From positions 2,418,001-2,482,000 of the forward strand of contig NZ_CP041063.1 in assembly GCF_011082085.1 (NCBI RefSeq): a stretch of DNA of 64,000 nucleotides, written 5' to 3'. Under the pieces are notes generated by a model. It had not been told where the DNA came from. It made no database searches and worked only from the letters and a program-made list of their open reading frames with translations. Positions 7,669-58,018 of this stretch are shown one piece after another. This stretch comes from Bacillus sp. Cs-700 (lineage in GTDB: Bacteria > Bacillota > Bacilli > Bacillales > Guptibacillaceae). The first letter of the stretch is position 1; each line of letters begins with the position of its first letter. Made by a program: the position numbers and the translations under genes.

Positions 7669-8284
7669 ACTTTGAGATTTCTTGTTCTTGATGATCCCTT
7701 GCTGTCGGTTTTCCAGGTACTTTATGACAGTGACGACAGCGCGGTTCATAAGACTCAGATGCACCAACAAGGATAATGGGATCCTCGTAATGAGCAGGCT
7801 TGCCATCAATAAGACGCTGCGTACGACTTGCTGGAGAACCACATACGACACAAATCGCTTGAAGCTTTGTGACGGATTCTGCAACCGTTAAAAGCTTTGG
7901 CACCTGCCCAAAAGCTTCACCGCGGAAATCCTGATCCAGCCCTGCAACGATCACACGAACTCCTTCATCTGCAAGCTGTTGCGCTACATCAACAATGCCT
8001 TCATCAAAAAACTGCACTTCATCAACCGCAACCATATCCGTATCTTCAGAAACGCGGTCCAGGATCGCCTGTGAATGATCAACCGGAACAGCGATGACGG
8101 ACATTCCATTATGAGATACAACAGATTCTTCGCTATATCTGTTATCCACTTTTGGTTTAAACACCTGAACTTTTTGTTTGGCATAAGTCGCTCGTCTTAC
8201 GCGACGAATTAATTCTTCAGACTTCCCGGAAAACATACTCCCGCAAACAACCTCAATCCAGCCGCTGTACTTCATAACATGCAT
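7667..8284 (-). CDS. tdk: Thymidine kinase
   Basis: 205 residues of the type II (zinc) thymidine kinase family, phosphorylating thymidine to dTMP. The P-loop [14 protein letters not shown] is near residue 15, the DEVQFF magnesium/Walker B motif near 90, and the zinc lasso cysteines CVVCGSPA (about 145) and CRHCHK (about 183) are intact. The first ATG has a GGAG site 10 nt upstream; a second ATG three codons on is also possible. Between rpmE and prfA, as in B. subtilis. The leader contains a candidate attenuator. Confidence 0.97.
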
Positions 8285-8315
8285 TCAACCGCTTCTCCTT
8301 TCCCAGCATAAGCAT

Positions 8316-8340
8316 AAAAAAACGACTGATCAGCGCAGTC
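8316..8340 (-). terminator. Terminator-like hairpin just before tdk (possible attenuator)
   Basis: On the minus strand GACTG and CAGTC (5 bp, 7-nt loop) are followed by a G and seven Ts. It ends about 30 nt before the tdk start codon, so it would stop transcription inside the tdk leader. The stem is short. Confidence 0.4.
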
Positions 8341-8448
8341 CTTATTTTGCGTATACTTTCATCCAATTATTGATCGTAGAGTGCTCACAAACCGCAATCA
8401 CTCGTATTCGCTTAAAAAGGCTTCGCCCATCTTAAAAATCATCCTTCA

Positions 8449-8497
8449 TAGGAAGAAACGAGTGAACAAAAGGGTTTGTTCCAACCGTTTCTTCCTA
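8449..8497. repeat. Long inverted repeat in the tdk leader
   Basis: A perfect 12-bp arm TAGGAAGAAACG (8449-8460) pairs with CGTTTCTTCCTA (8486-8497). An inner GAACAAA (8464-8470) pairs with TTTGTTC (8475-8481). It lies 165 nt upstream of tdk. The rest of 8285-8589 shows only the rpmE terminator and the hairpin near tdk. Confidence 0.7.
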
Positions 8498-8554
8498 CAA
8501 ATATGTGCAAAGTAGCTCTGCATGATGATCATTTCTTGCTTCATTGAGTTAAAA

Positions 8555-8583
8555 AACAGGCAAGGAGTAAAAACTTGCCTGTT
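8555..8583 (-). terminator. rpmE terminator
   Basis: AACAGGCAAG / CTTGCCTGTT, a 10-bp stem, followed on the minus strand by a T run. It lies just after the rpmE stop. Confidence 0.85.
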
Positions 8584-8589
8584 CTATCA

Positions 8590-8796
8590 TTAACCTTTTA
8601 GGTTGTATTTTTTTCTAAACTTATCTACGCGTCCACCAGCGTCATTAAACTTCTGACGTCCAGTATAGAATGGATGGCACTCAGAGCAAACCTCTACGCT
8701 CACGCCGTCCTGTTTTGTAGAACCAGTTTCGAATTCGTTACCGCAAGCACATCTTACCTTAATGGTTTCATAACCAGGATGAATCGCTTGTTTCAT
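8590..8796 (-). CDS. rpmE: 50S ribosomal protein L31, zinc-binding type A
   Basis: 68 residues from the ATG at 8796, about 8 nt after GGAAGGAG. An ATG three codons earlier overlaps that site and is less likely. Cysteines in CACGNEF and [10 protein letters not shown] form the zinc site that marks the C+ form of L31, used when zinc is ample. It lies between rho and tdk with its own terminators on both sides. Confidence 0.97.
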
Positions 8797-8843
8797 GAAT
8801 TTCATCTCCTTCCGCCCTGATTCCTGAGGAACCAGAGTTAAAT

Positions 8844-8872
8844 GAAGCTAAAAGGCAGTGCCTTTTAGCTTC
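8844..8872 (-). terminator. Probable rho terminator
   Basis: A strong inverted repeat, GAAGCTAAAAGGCA / TGCCTTTTAGCTTC, lies 77 nt after the rho stop and before rpmE. The T tract that follows is weak. The segment between it and rpmE also holds GATTCCTGAGGAACC, a small dyad that could belong to an L31 leader; I could not establish that. Confidence 0.65.
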
Positions 8873-8948
8873 TGCACACATAGACGTATTATAGCAGGGT
8901 GTTCCAGACAATGCAATTGATCATCTTGTGACGAAACACCCTCATTCT

Positions 8949-54469: not shown

Positions 54470-55726
54470 TCATACACCTTTCGAATCTTGCCACTTACCT
54501 GTCTGCATACTTCGGTGCACCATTTGCACACTTTCTTTAAAAACAAACCATCCGCCTAACGGAAAGAGTAACAGCCCCACCCATCCAGGGAATGAAAAAC
54601 CTGTTACCAAACAGAGCAAGAGAAAACTTGGCATCGACACAAGCATTAACGCTTGTTTCCCTGCTTGCTTACGTAGTGACGTATCCCACTGGAATAACTG
54701 AGCAAAGCTACCTTCCGAGAACTCATGCCAGTCAGCTCTCGATAGCCCGATCAACGCATAGAGTGCAAACAAAAGCACCACCACTTTCACAACTAGCGGC
54801 AACAAAAGGATCGCTGCCGTTCCCCAACCGATCACTTGTAGGTAATATTGTATTTTTCCAATCGAGCGAAGCAACCATTTCGTATAAAGATCGATCATCC
54901 TTGTCTGTGGAAAATGTGTCTTACGTATTCGCTTGGATCCTCGAAAAAGAAAAGGCTGTTTTCGAACAATCAGAGTAGCCGGGGCTACCCCAACGTTTCC
55001 CATCAAAAATTTCGTTATACTCTGCTTATGTCCCCGCTCGATGACCGCATCGTGAAAAAAGGTTCCCCTTATCTTCACACGCGCCCATAGCTGAACAAAC
55101 AACAGAAGAAGCAAACTCCCGCTCCCGGCAAAAACCGCCCATTCGTACTGCCAACCGACCTGGCTCACTACAAGCAGGATTACAATGGAAAGCAGGTTCA
55201 CAAATCCAACCGGGATCCATTTCACCCAAATAGAAGGCACGAACAGATCAATAAAATACCGACTCGTTTTCACATTCCAACTTACTAAAAGCAGAAATAG
55301 CCCCGTAACTGCAATTCTCTCCAAACTCCAGCCCCATCCTGTCATAAGTAGCGGCAGAGCAACACCAATTCCAAGAGACGAAACGAGCATTCCTTTCAAA
55401 AGCGAATGCGCCATTCCCCACTTCTTCAGTCCTTTACTAAGGACTGCGTTTTGCATCAAATACACCTGATCCGCTTCTTCTGTATACATCCGTAATGACC
55501 AGGTCGTTGCGATTAAAAACAGTGGGAAGACAGCAGACTGCTCAGGAATGACTGTGAGCCAGTCAGGTGCCACCAGCCACCAGGAGCGATAATAAGCCAC
55601 ACCGATCACGAGCGCCGGAATCAGAATATAGAGCCAAACCGTCCAATCAAGCGCAGCTTTTAGATCACGAATTTTATAACGACGATCGTCCCTTACTCGC
55701 TTTCGTAACAGTTGAAAGGATGTCAT
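54470..55726 (-). CDS. EcsB-like ABC transporter permease
   Basis: 418 residues with about eight or nine membrane helices in pairs, matching the EcsB/YthQ family of integral subunits (begins TSFQLLRKRVRDDRRYKIRDLKAALDWTVW). The start ATG overlaps the ATPase stop (ATGA). EcsAB pairs affect secretion, protease processing, competence and biofilm in B. subtilis; the exact substrate is unknown. Whether this is the main Ecs or a YthPQ-like paralogue is not clear, but it is not next to hit or ecsC here. Confidence 0.85.
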   Translation of the reverse strand: MTSFQLLRKRVRDDRRYKIRDLKAALDWTVWLYILIPALVIGVAYYRSWWLVAPDWLTVIPEQSAVFPLFLIATTWSLRMYTEEADQVYLMQNAVLSKGLKKWGMAHSLLKGMLVSSLGIGVALPLLMTGWGWSLERIAVTGLFLLLVSWNVKTSRYFIDLFVPSIWVKWIPVGFVNLLSIVILLVVSQVGWQYEWAVFAGSGSLLLLLFVQLWARVKIRGTFFHDAVIERGHKQSITKFLMGNVGVAPATLIVRKQPFLFRGSKRIRKTHFPQTRMIDLYTKWLLRSIGKIQYYLQVIGWGTAAILLLPLVVKVVVLLFALYALIGLSRADWHEFSEGSFAQLFQWDTSLRKQAGKQALMLVSMPSFLLLCLVTGFSFPGWVGLLLFPLGGWFVFKESVQMVHRSMQTGKWQDSKGV

Positions 55727-56427
55727 ATTCGTTGCTCCATTAACATATCAACACAATCAAGAAGCGAACTGTCGATCTCTAAACCAGACTGCTCACGCAT
55801 TTCCTGAAGCGACCCTTTTGCAAGAAGCGTTCCGTTCGACAATAAAACAAAGCGATTACATACCCGCTCCGCCGTATCTAACACGTGCGTACACATTAAG
55901 ATTGCCGCACCTCGCGCTCGTTCTTTTTCAATCATCTTTAAAAAATCCTTAGTCGCGCGCGGATCCAGTCCTAGAAACGGTTCATCAATAATATAGACGT
56001 CAGGTTGCAGCATAAAAGCGGTAATCAGCATCACCTTTTGTCTCATTCCTTTTGAAAAGCTTGATGGAAGATGATGAATCACATGCTGAAGTTGAAAGTA
56101 ACGGATCAAGTTCTGTGCACGCTCCTGCCAATCCTCATCAGCTAGTGATGTAGCCGCTGCCGCAAGCTCTAAATGCTCCCAAAGCGTTAAGCTATCATAG
56201 AAAACAGGCTGCTCTGGCACGTAAGCATAGCGCGTCCCATTCTCAAACGTGACGGTTCCTTTCCATTCTTTCAATAATCCTAGAATCGTTTTAATCGTTG
56301 TACTTTTCCCCGCTCCGTTTGACCCTAGTAACCCAAGAAGCTCACCGCTCTTTACTTCGAATGCAATCTCTCGTATTTTACTCTCTCTTTTTTCGTAACC
56401 TGCTTCCTCAATCGCAACTTTCAACAT
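55723..56427 (-). CDS. EcsA/YthP-like ABC transporter ATPase
   Basis: 234 residues from the ATG at 56427. Walker A GLLGSNGAGKSTTIKTIL (about 40), signature SSFSKGMRQK (about 127), Walker B VYIIDEPFLGLDPRA (about 147), and the H-loop in MCTHVLDTAERVCNRF. A GTG three codons upstream overlaps the ribosome site and is less likely. It starts 48 nt after the sigma-cassette gene with no terminator between, so one transcript is likely. Confidence 0.9.
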   Translation of the reverse strand: MLKVAIEEAGYEKRESKIREIAFEVKSGELLGLLGSNGAGKSTTIKTILGLLKEWKGTVTFENGTRYAYVPEQPVFYDSLTLWEHLELAAAATSLADEDWQERAQNLIRYFQLQHVIHHLPSSFSKGMRQKVMLITAFMLQPDVYIIDEPFLGLDPRATKDFLKMIEKERARGAAILMCTHVLDTAERVCNRFVLLSNGTLLAKGSLQEMREQSGLEIDSSLLDCVDMLMEQRI

Positions 56428-56475
56428 CACCTTCACCTCTATCCTTTTATACGAGATAAAATGGGTAAAAGTTTC

Positions 56476-56724
56476 CTATTTCTTCCCTTTTTGAGCTTCA
56501 ATAAACTGTTCAAAGTTCGGCACATCCTCCACACTGTATTTTTCAACAGCTTCCATAACCTTTATCACTAATTCCTGCCGTAAATCATCCCTATTTTGAG
56601 GGGGAGTTTGTCTGAGCTCTGCTTCGATTTTTTTCTCAAATTGATTGAGGATCGCACTCAGTCCCTCTTTGTCTTCATTCTTAGCCTGCTGTAAAAGCGT
56701 ATATAGTCTTTTTTCCATAGTCAT
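56476..56724 (-). CDS. RsoA-like partner with sigma region 2 homology
   Basis: 82 residues. The core ILNQFEKKIEAEL and NRDDLRQELVIKVMEAVEKY resembles sigma-70 region 2.1-2.2, which contacts the polymerase beta-prime coiled coil, and it ends NFEQFIEAQ. B. subtilis RsoA is an analogous small region-2 protein that works only with sigma O. First ATG overlaps the YvrJ stop (ATGA); a second ATG two codons later has better AAGGG spacing. No DNA-binding region 4 is present, so it needs a partner. The assignment is by pattern and neighbours. Confidence 0.65.
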   Translation of the reverse strand: MTMEKRLYTLLQQAKNEDKEGLSAILNQFEKKIEAELRQTPPQNRDDLRQELVIKVMEAVEKYSVEDVPNFEQFIEAQKGKK

Positions 56725-56867
56725 CCCTTCTTGTTTGTTTCCTTATCCTCCACTGCATTCGTGAGATCATCAATTTTCTTTTCAAGTCGAACGAGCAAAT
56801 AAAGAGAGACCACAATCGGAAATCCTAAATCACCGATAATCGCGTTAATCACTGTTGTGATGCTCAT
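56721..56867 (-). CDS. YvrJ-like small membrane protein
   Basis: 48 residues: SITTVINAIIGDLGFPIVVSLYLLVR, then LEKKIDDLTNAV and a Lys-rich tail. One membrane helix plus a short amphipathic segment; the GDLGFPIVVSLYLL(V/L)R motif is characteristic of the YvrJ family, found beside sigO (yvrI) in B. subtilis. The AAGGAGGGG site is strong. Both ends overlap neighbours by ATGA: the sigma gene upstream and the RsoA-like gene downstream. Its role in sigma O systems is not established. Confidence 0.8.
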   Translation of the reverse strand: MSITTVINAIIGDLGFPIVVSLYLLVRLEKKIDDLTNAVEDKETNKKG

Positions 56868-57430
56868 GAACTCCCCTCCTTTCCTGCAGCCTTTAACTTC
56901 TCAAGGGCTCGTTTACGCCTTCTGCTCACGGCTTGCTGTGAAATTCCAGCCGTTCTAGCAATTTCCGTATCAGATAGCTCGAAGCGATAAAAAAGGTCTA
57001 GAACCTCTTTCTGCTTTGAAGTTAACCTGCTAAAAGCAAGATAAATGGATTTCTGCTGTATACTCTCTTCAAACGCTGGTTCTTCATCACTACTTGTCGG
57101 ACTTTCAATCAAATCAATCCACGCAGCATCTGAGGCTCCTATAGGTTGATCAAGTGTGAGAGGAAAACGAAGATGCCCAACTCTACGCTTTCGATCAAAG
57201 TTAATGGCCGTATAACGAATGAGCTTCGTCACATAAGCGATAAATCGGATTTCCGTATAATACTTATGAAAAAGAGAATTGAGCCTGTTTAACGCTTCAC
57301 GATCCCTCGATTCATAAGCCTCCATAAAACTTGTCCAATGCGCTTCTTTTTGAATAAACGACTGAAACAAGAGATTTTCCTTTAACTCCTCCATCACTTT
57401 ATCTAAACGCCATTCATTCTTCATCCTCAC
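56864..57430 (-). CDS. Sigma-70-like factor with region 4, SigO/YvrI-like
   Basis: 188 residues. C-terminal region 4 is strong: YLAFSRLTSKQKEVLDLFY and the helix-turn-helix ELSDTEIARTAGISQQAVSRRRKRALEKLK (about 148-178). A middle segment IRFIAYVTKLIRYTAINFDRKRR (about 62-85) resembles the end of region 2 (2.3-2.4), whereas regions 2.1-2.2 are poorly matched. The missing part appears in the small gene two downstream, giving a split sigma factor. Good GGGAGAGGTGAGG leader site. A LexA-like box lies 64-77 nt upstream. Target promoters are unknown. Confidence 0.75.
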   Translation of the reverse strand: MRMKNEWRLDKVMEELKENLLFQSFIQKEAHWTSFMEAYESRDREALNRLNSLFHKYYTEIRFIAYVTKLIRYTAINFDRKRRVGHLRFPLTLDQPIGASDAAWIDLIESPTSSDEEPAFEESIQQKSIYLAFSRLTSKQKEVLDLFYRFELSDTEIARTAGISQQAVSRRRKRALEKLKAAGKEGSS

Positions 57431-57493
57431 CTCTCCCTTCTCTGTCTGTAGGAATGAAAGTATGCTGAAAGATAAAAATCACAACCCTCATTT

Positions 57494-57507
57494 CGAACGT
57501 ATGTTCT
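57494..57507. promoter_or_regulatory. LexA (SOS)-like box upstream of the sigma cassette
   Basis: CGAACGTATGTTCT matches 13 of 14 positions of the B. subtilis LexA consensus CGAACRNRYGTTYC. A TATAAT at 57515-57520 (minus strand) would place the transcript start at or next to the box, fitting repression. The -35 is weak. Confidence 0.5.
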
Positions 57508-57526
57508 TATTTTAATTATAGAAAAA

Positions 57527-57548
57527 ACTCATGAAAATAACCATGAGT
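57527..57548 (-). terminator. Flagellar operon terminator
   Basis: ACTCATG / CATGAGT, 7-bp stem with an 8-nt loop followed on the minus strand by TTTTTTC, 32 nt past the YaaR-like gene. It separates the flagellar operon from the sigma cassette. Confidence 0.75.
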
Positions 57549-57580
57549 CAATACTTCCTATTTCACATAGGTCGATCGAA

Positions 57581-58018
57581 CTAGAGAGAAAGATCAACAA
57601 GCAGCCCTTTTATTTCTCCGACTAGTGATAATAAGGACATCCCATTCTTCTCTTTCTCTCGCATCTCTTTCTGAATTTCAATGAGCTTGTTTTCTACCGT
57701 TTCCACAAGCTTGTACGTGCGACTTCTCCCATAATGATCCATGCTCTTTTTCTCAGAAAGCGTAAGACCCTGGCTAACCGCTTCTTCAAGAAACTGTTTT
57801 ACCATCCTCTTGTAGGCAGATAAGTTCTGAAACGTTCGTTCCTTTCCAAGTAGCTCACCCTGACGGTCAATTTGTTGCAGAAGACGCTGAAGTTCAGCCC
57901 CTTTCAGCTCTTTAGACGCCTCTTGAATCACGGACTGAAACGCAACCTGCTTGTTTCCTTTTGGCAAATCTAGCTTTAAAGGATCAACTGATGGCTTGCC
58001 ATGCTGCTGAATTTTCAT
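57581..58018 (-). CDS. YaaR/DUF327 family protein
   Basis: 145 residues, mostly helical, with the DUF327 pattern: FQSVIQEASKELKGAELQRLLQQIDRQGELLGKERTFQNLSAYKRMVKQFLEEAV and SYGRSRTYKLV-like HYGRSRTYKLVETVENKLIEI. Function unknown. Its ATG overlaps the preceding swrB-like stop by 4 nt and it ends the flagellar transcript, so a motility-linked role is plausible here; in B. subtilis yaaR is not in this operon. Confidence 0.75.
   Translation of the reverse strand: MKIQQHGKPSVDPLKLDLPKGNKQVAFQSVIQEASKELKGAELQRLLQQIDRQGELLGKERTFQNLSAYKRMVKQFLEEAVSQGLTLSEKKSMDHYGRSRTYKLVETVENKLIEIQKEMREKEKNGMSLLSLVGEIKGLLVDLSL

Follow-up and report, generated by a model that had tools for sequence, protein, structure and literature searches.

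Two described systems come closest to the locus analyzed here. In the accessible parts of the literature searched, SigO-RsoA (YvrI-YvrHa) appears as one system, found in B. subtilis and linked to oxalate decarboxylase and to acid stress. Excerpts of PMC10141391 name acid stress and antibiotics acting on the cell wall as its inducers and cite, as reference 46, a paper whose title reports control of SigO-RsoA by an integral membrane protein; excerpts of PMC8103513 report the sigO operon itself (autoregulation) and yvrJ as targets. The other system, UviA-UviB of Clostridium perfringens plasmids, is described in the available portions of PMC4459074 and PMC9527704 as combining a LexA site, UV induction, a BhlA-family holin and a nearby amidase.

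The cassette studied here lies in a 64,000-nucleotide stretch (the window) of a genome that forms a single contig of 4.3 Mb and that its named relatives place in the genus Pseudalkalibacillus. As in SigO-RsoA, one operon encodes both a protein with region 4 and another with region 2, but the 82-aa protein of the window falls under the cutoff of the RsoA equivalog (37 versus 100 bits), and the cassette carries a LexA-like box that is found in none of the four B. subtilis-type loci. YvrJ is encoded between the sigma halves in the window, whereas in the B. subtilis-type loci that showed it, L104 and L106, it is divergent from sigO. At the place of the upstream autoregulatory promoter of the SigO system, the window has a conserved GGTTGTGA-N18-CTTT element, a predicted promoter. 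The likeness to UviA-UviB, as far as the available portions describe that system, consists of a dedicated sigma factor together with a small holin or holin-like protein, a LexA or LexA-like site and, in relatives of the window's cassette, an amidase nearby; SOS induction of the cassette is predicted. In contrast, UviA forms one chain and has regions 2.4 and 4.2 of its own (PMC4459074, in part), while region 2 is here split over two proteins, and the cassette falls outside the UviA type (group V, TcdR-like), which is defined by a single polypeptide with regions 2 and 4. Moreover, no bacteriocin gene was identified with the window's cassette, and YvrJ belongs to another Pfam family than the UviB holin.

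Two-subunit sigma factors are known already as a kind, and what is added here is a putative operator of SOS type, a promoter element recurring across the family and a connection to hydrolases. An earlier sequence-only reading of this DNA had overlooked the box and GGTTGTGA-N18-CTTT, and likewise the association of relatives with cell-wall hydrolases. None of these additions was found in the literature searched, which largely excludes subscription papers and in which nothing joined YvrJ with LexA, nor SigO with LexA, Bacillus and the SOS response.

Cassette layout and the two sigma halves

The cassette and its surroundings comprise the following features, in the direction of transcription (window coordinates).

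57581..58018, minus strand: DUF327 gene (Pfam), preceding the cassette
57526..57549, minus strand: terminator-like hairpin between the cassette and the preceding flagellar-operon gene
57509..57537, minus strand: weak housekeeping-type promoter, TTTTCA-17-TAAAAT, ending immediately before the operator
57494..57507, minus strand: LexA (SOS)-like operator AGAACATACGTTCG, from 14/14 genus genomes and family statistics
57449..57486, minus strand: candidate autoregulatory split-sigma promoter GGTTGTGA-N18-CTTTCATTCCTA, perfect in 14/14 genus genomes
56864..57430, minus strand: SigO-like sigma subunit, 188 aa, GTG start with an alternative ATG 6 nt downstream at 57424; from N- to C-terminus, by profile matches and alignments, an N-terminal stretch of its own, a region 2.3-2.4-like stretch, a linker and region 4
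56721..56867, minus strand: YvrJ, 48 aa (Pfam PF12841), a hydrophobic segment followed by a charged one
56476..56724, minus strand: RsoA-like sigma subunit, 82 aa, region 2.1-2.2-like by profile matches
55723..56436, minus strand: ABC transporter ATPase (Pfam), followed by an EcsB-like permease at 54470-55726

Two ATGA overlaps chain the sigma gene to yvrJ and yvrJ to the RsoA-like gene. The sigma gene and an adjoining YvrJ were found in all 14 genomes of the genus Pseudalkalibacillus, with ATGA at the sigma-YvrJ junction in 12 of them and ATGA at the end of YvrJ likewise in 12; this co-occurrence and the kept junctions make the cassette more than a chance arrangement. The proposal of a split sigma cassette made in the sequence-only reading is therefore borne out by three chained minus-strand ORFs, a domain split seen by HMM and the 14/14 co-occurrence. 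The same reading took the overlaps to imply fixed stoichiometry, which is unsupported since an overlap implies translational coupling and not a ratio. It had also taken the setting, next to an ABC exporter and a flagellar operon, to be different from that in B. subtilis, so that the regulon might be new. A FliA-like match within 2 kb of the cassette is listed in 12 of the 14 genomes, so the flagellar side is common to the genus, but the setting provided no clue to function. As to oxdC and yvrL, the genes linked with the SigO system of B. subtilis, the eight proteins scanned around the window's cassette include no cupin; they include no hydrolase either.

The 188-aa protein matches Pfam Sigma70_r4 at 6.9e-10, and Sigma70_r2 is absent among the 13 Pfam families listed for it up to E 1. 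Its match to TIGR02937 enters the model only at position 35 (residues 46-181 against model 35-163 of 165). The 82-aa protein matches HTH_16 at 36.7 bits and Sigma70_r2 at E 0.003, under the Pfam cutoff. The comparison with RsoA suggested by the sequence-only reading gave a match to the equivalog NF041489 at 2e-9, but its 37.3 bits are below the curated cutoff of 100 bits. In phrog_351 (sigma factor), the 188-aa protein aligns at 558-728 (1.1e-14) and the 82-aa protein, weakly, at 490-556 (E 0.019); as these matches abut, the two proteins read as neighbouring halves with the break inside region 2. Single-sequence sigma matches of the 82-aa protein are weak (E 0.0003 to 0.02), and a profile of 28 of its relatives retrieved 16 sequences from the PDB at E values up to 1, every one a sigma factor, the best being SigW residues 9-71 at 7e-4. 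A profile of 24 relatives of the sigma half matched FliA residues 137-237 at 2.7e-11. These profile matches back, at the HMM level, the earlier assignment of regions 2.1-2.2 to the 82-aa protein and of regions 2.3-2.4 plus 4 to the 188-aa protein: the latter has no complete region 2, and the former is region 2-like. They support the reading of the two proteins as a split sigma factor whose region 2 appears to be divided between them.

A predicted operator and a candidate promoter element upstream

The palindrome AGAACATACGTTCG upstream of the cassette differs at one position from the LexA box of B. subtilis, given as CGAACN4GTTCG in the consulted parts of PMC9578287 (Table 1) and PMC4551915. 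The cassette thereby has, with one mismatch, the CGAAC-N4-GTTCG-type operator near a start site that marks the LexA (SOS) regulon. The box is present in 14/14 genus genomes, identical except for one spacer base, and its core starts 20 nt before GGTTGTGA in each of them. A similar box, CGAATAAATGTTCG, lies upstream of recA in all 14 genomes, and the region before lexA in the window's genome contains CGAACTTATGTTTG and AGAACCCCTGTTCG (this survey used only the plus-strand lexA loci).

Abundance provides no such argument. The chance expectation for a palindrome of this kind within the window is 1.06, and boxes with at most one mismatch are rarer in the window's genome than mirror controls (55 versus 147 sites). 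When nine regions around LexA-like sites of this genome were read as a control, five sites were inside ORFs of at least 100 aa, and lexA was the one recognised SOS place among the nine, the others not being known SOS genes. This control reading does not help the LexA interpretation, and our overall confidence was slightly lowered because the genome-wide box control was negative. The one sigma-70 promoter found before the box, compared with a mean of 2.3 in shuffles, is no evidence by itself; a TATAAT is also present at 57515-57520, within the weak promoter upstream of the operator. The case for the operator thus rests on its position and recurrence, from which we consider control of the cassette by LexA likely.

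Recurrence was assessed across Bacilli. The RsoA model (E 1e-3) matched 51 of 398 genomes, four of them above the model cutoff, so the type is commoner than the lone B. subtilis example known to the sequence-only reading. A broader RsoA-like profile (E 1e-4) matched 234/397 genomes of the order, the weak matches among which may be ordinary sigma factors. In two of the families from this broader search (f79 and f89), many RsoA-like matches contain one in-frame stop and may be decayed copies or reflect true gene ends. Relatives of the sigma half were found on 18 plasmid records, 15 of which were read. The resulting 45 cassettes consist of these 15 plasmids, L228 and 29 RsoA loci, i.e., the 30 listed of the 51 matching genomes minus L115, which has a different ORF upstream. 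Four loci (L104-L107) are called B. subtilis-type from their RsoA score above the cutoff, and the other 41 cassettes non-subtilis.

Within 460 nt around the sigma start, a perfect GAAC-N4-GTTC was found in 28 of the 41 non-subtilis cassettes and in none of the four B. subtilis-type loci; seven of the 13 non-subtilis cassettes lacking it have a box with one mismatch in the scanned region. Among all 256 half-sites, the next-best were A/T runs (16 and 12 cassettes), and the best with equal base composition reached 2/41. In 44 loci, 27 sites fell in the 20,240 bases around sigma starts, compared with 3 in 163,547 bases elsewhere, and dinucleotide shuffles of the 41 cassettes gave a mean of 0.18 and a maximum of 3 in 2000. 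A further set came from 30 loci listed with the broader profile, of which 16 were new and five of these were dropped for want of a sigma ORF; the perfect palindrome was present in 7 of the 11 remaining cassettes, absent from 4, and had no occurrence in 30,466 bases elsewhere. The palindrome thus recurs across chromosomes and plasmids of several genera, although the cassettes are akin to each other and these counts are not independent trials.

A second element also recurs. GTTGT-N20-CTTT was found in 13 of the 45 cassettes, with other spacings from 10 to 30 giving 0-2, and the strict form is missing in the other 32; shuffles of 41 cassettes gave a mean of 0.11 and a maximum of 3. In the genus the element takes the form GGTTGTGA-N18-CTTTCWWTCCTA, perfect in 14/14 genomes, and the -10-like part in the window differs from the family's CTTTATTA. 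By eye, GTTTAC precedes both sigO and yvrJ in the B. subtilis-type loci, together with a TTTAAT or TTATATA block at comparable spacing. Because this like block precedes the operons reported as SigO-RsoA targets, the element was read as a split-sigma promoter, and GGTTGTGA-N18-CTTT is a candidate for the cassette's own autoregulatory promoter. Autoactivation by the cassette's sigma factor is, on these motif data, fairly probable.

Neighbours and candidate targets

Promoter scans of the window's genome and its relatives (14 genomes) recognised no second conserved site of the genus type. A match with three mismatches upstream of coaBC in the window's genome was set aside, as by eye it falls within a run of T that follows an inverted repeat at the end of the gene before, and a genus-like short sequence in five genomes (G002, G005, G009, G011 and G013) was taken, also by eye, for coding sequence.

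A plasmid pattern, GGTTGT-N20-CTTTWWWA with at most one mismatch, was compared with its mirrored counterpart and had 32 sites on the 15 plasmid records versus 12 for the mirror control, with no match on four of them (W09, W11, W14 and W15). On a 42.5-kb P. megaterium plasmid there were seven pattern sites versus no mirrored ones, and six of the seven sit 26-67 nt before annotated genes; among these are the genes for an S8 peptidase, a glutaredoxin and a 670-aa protein, and a gene that opens a run of ABC transporters. The pattern also precedes an amidase (Amidase_3) in L165, a Phage_lysozyme gene in L169 and a cell-wall hydrolase (Hydrolase_2) in L171, and a similar stretch was seen by eye ahead of a peptidoglycan-binding protein in L165. 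On four scanned chromosomes the plasmid-type pattern was not in excess (16, 21, 10 and 22 sites versus 25, 20, 30 and 22 for the mirror). One Pseudalkalibacillus genome has a second cassette, in the order sigma, YvrJ, RsoA, Amidase_3 and a peptidoglycan-binding/glycoside-hydrolase-like protein, and its sigma gene is preceded by both the box and the promoter element. In L228, a 185-aa gene with no Pfam family (8103-8873) has a split-sigma promoter motif and a LexA-like box upstream.

The scans showed no target of the window's copy other than the cassette itself, so its output is a prediction. One might suppose that a plasmid module was domesticated and left the chromosomal cassette as a remnant, which today drives nothing but itself, as relatives occur on 18 plasmid records, no other conserved site with the cassette's promoter was recognised in the 14 genomes and the scanned neighbours in the window include no hydrolase. 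Yet all 14 genomes have kept the proteins, the box and the promoter element, which argues for a selected function and leaves the remnant explanation unlikely.

Two further sets of neighbours were recorded. The DUF1659-DUF2922-YvrJ operon of the same genome (L007 926-1644; G000:C1:3739150-3739868) was rejected as a direct target since its conserved promoter block, ATGCCCCTTTTT...CGATATATAGGG, is not of the split-sigma type; this non-standard block is itself strongly conserved in an alignment of 16 of the 17 genus loci, L035 having been left out because it has no ORF. Of 12 loci scanned, four have a tRNA-Cys(gca) gene close to the split-sigma cassette (L170 3314-3384, L173 3253-3323, L174 3036-3107 and L168 1-71). 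All four also bear a glutaredoxin gene, and the glutaredoxin loci L164, L167 and L172 show no tRNA. Together, tRNA-Cys(gca) and glutaredoxin near cassettes hint at a cysteine-rich product.

YvrJ and the proposed switch

YvrJ of the window matches PF12841 at 60 bits, and a single transmembrane segment was read by eye. Pfam shows no holin match for YvrJ and no link to holins. Residues 7-44 of its 48 align with phrog_4898, labelled holin, at E 2.7e-6 and 28.6 bits, and this family was matched by all eight YvrJ proteins tested (E 2.8e-7 to 0.005); the scores are low, at 18-32 bits, and the label is an annotation and not a test. From the split-sigma family data comes a candidate role for YvrJ proteins, which have so far lacked characterisation.

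With somewhat more confidence than doubt, we favor a LexA-primed, self-amplifying two-subunit sigma factor with the build of SigO-RsoA and a UviA-UviB-like working, whose relatives drive holin- or endolysin-type genes. The cassette would encode a SigO-RsoA-type sigma factor of two subunits and a small holin-like membrane protein, and LexA bound to the operator beside the start site would hold the operon low. Upon DNA damage, removal of LexA would allow a first wave of both halves, coupled by the ATGA overlaps, which would join on RNA polymerase, recognise GGTTGTGA-N18-CTTT before their own operon and so amplify the signal. In several plasmid or mobile relatives, the same type of promoter before peptidoglycan hydrolases, peptidases and glutaredoxin may lead to opening of the wall for lysis or product release. 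For these plasmid relatives, lysis or release as the output is evenly balanced with other outcomes; for the window's copy, whose visible output would be YvrJ and the cassette alone, it is doubtful.

A different possibility is that the locus is the equivalent of SigO-RsoA for envelope or acid stress and that a repressor other than LexA binds the palindrome. The shared architecture, the inducers reported in the excerpts of PMC10141391, the promoter-like element of similar form that B. subtilis-type loci have ahead of sigO and yvrJ, and the lack of enrichment of loose boxes in the window's genome all agree with it. However, the palindrome fits the published Bacillus LexA consensus, resembles the host's recA and lexA boxes and is found repeatedly in several genera, both chromosomally and on plasmids, which makes this equivalence improbable. 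YvrJ could also be a membrane regulator of the sigma halves, holding and releasing them like an anti-sigma factor rather than acting as an effector, with the operon order serving assembly control. Its translation between the halves, overlapping each neighbour in 12/14 genus genomes, and the membrane-protein control named in the reference title cited above would suit such a role. Elsewhere, however, YvrJ is encoded not between sigma halves but directly behind an amidase (on two plasmids) or an S8 peptidase, or inside a DUF1659-DUF2922 operon; given also the match to the PHROG labelled holin, a regulatory role of this kind seems rather improbable. An origin in phages is unsupported, as a viral search with single proteins as queries found no relatives in phage records or viral contigs.

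These data place SigO-RsoA in a large family whose members occur both chromosomally and on plasmids. Of the non-subtilis members examined, 28 of 41 have a perfect SOS-type palindrome, and the family shows a recurrent promoter signature and, on several plasmids, a candidate regulon made up of peptidases and enzymes that hydrolyse the wall. The family may represent a counterpart in Bacillus of UviA-UviB, the bacteriocin switch of clostridia. It also suggests why a sigma factor might be split, in a form open to testing, namely, a built-in AND gate ahead of a dangerous output. More tentatively, split sigma factors could be a widespread DNA-damage switch of Bacilli, a LexA-primed, self-amplifying AND gate through which hosts, plasmid-bearing or chromosomal, would be committed to wall opening of the holin/hydrolase type or to product release, with YvrJ as the holin and the acid-stress SigO-RsoA of B. 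subtilis as an offshoot minus the SOS box.

As a separate observation from the genus survey, the recA matches are split into two pieces in 3 of the 14 genomes (G002, G007 and G011; L101-L103), as if by an intron or intervening sequence.
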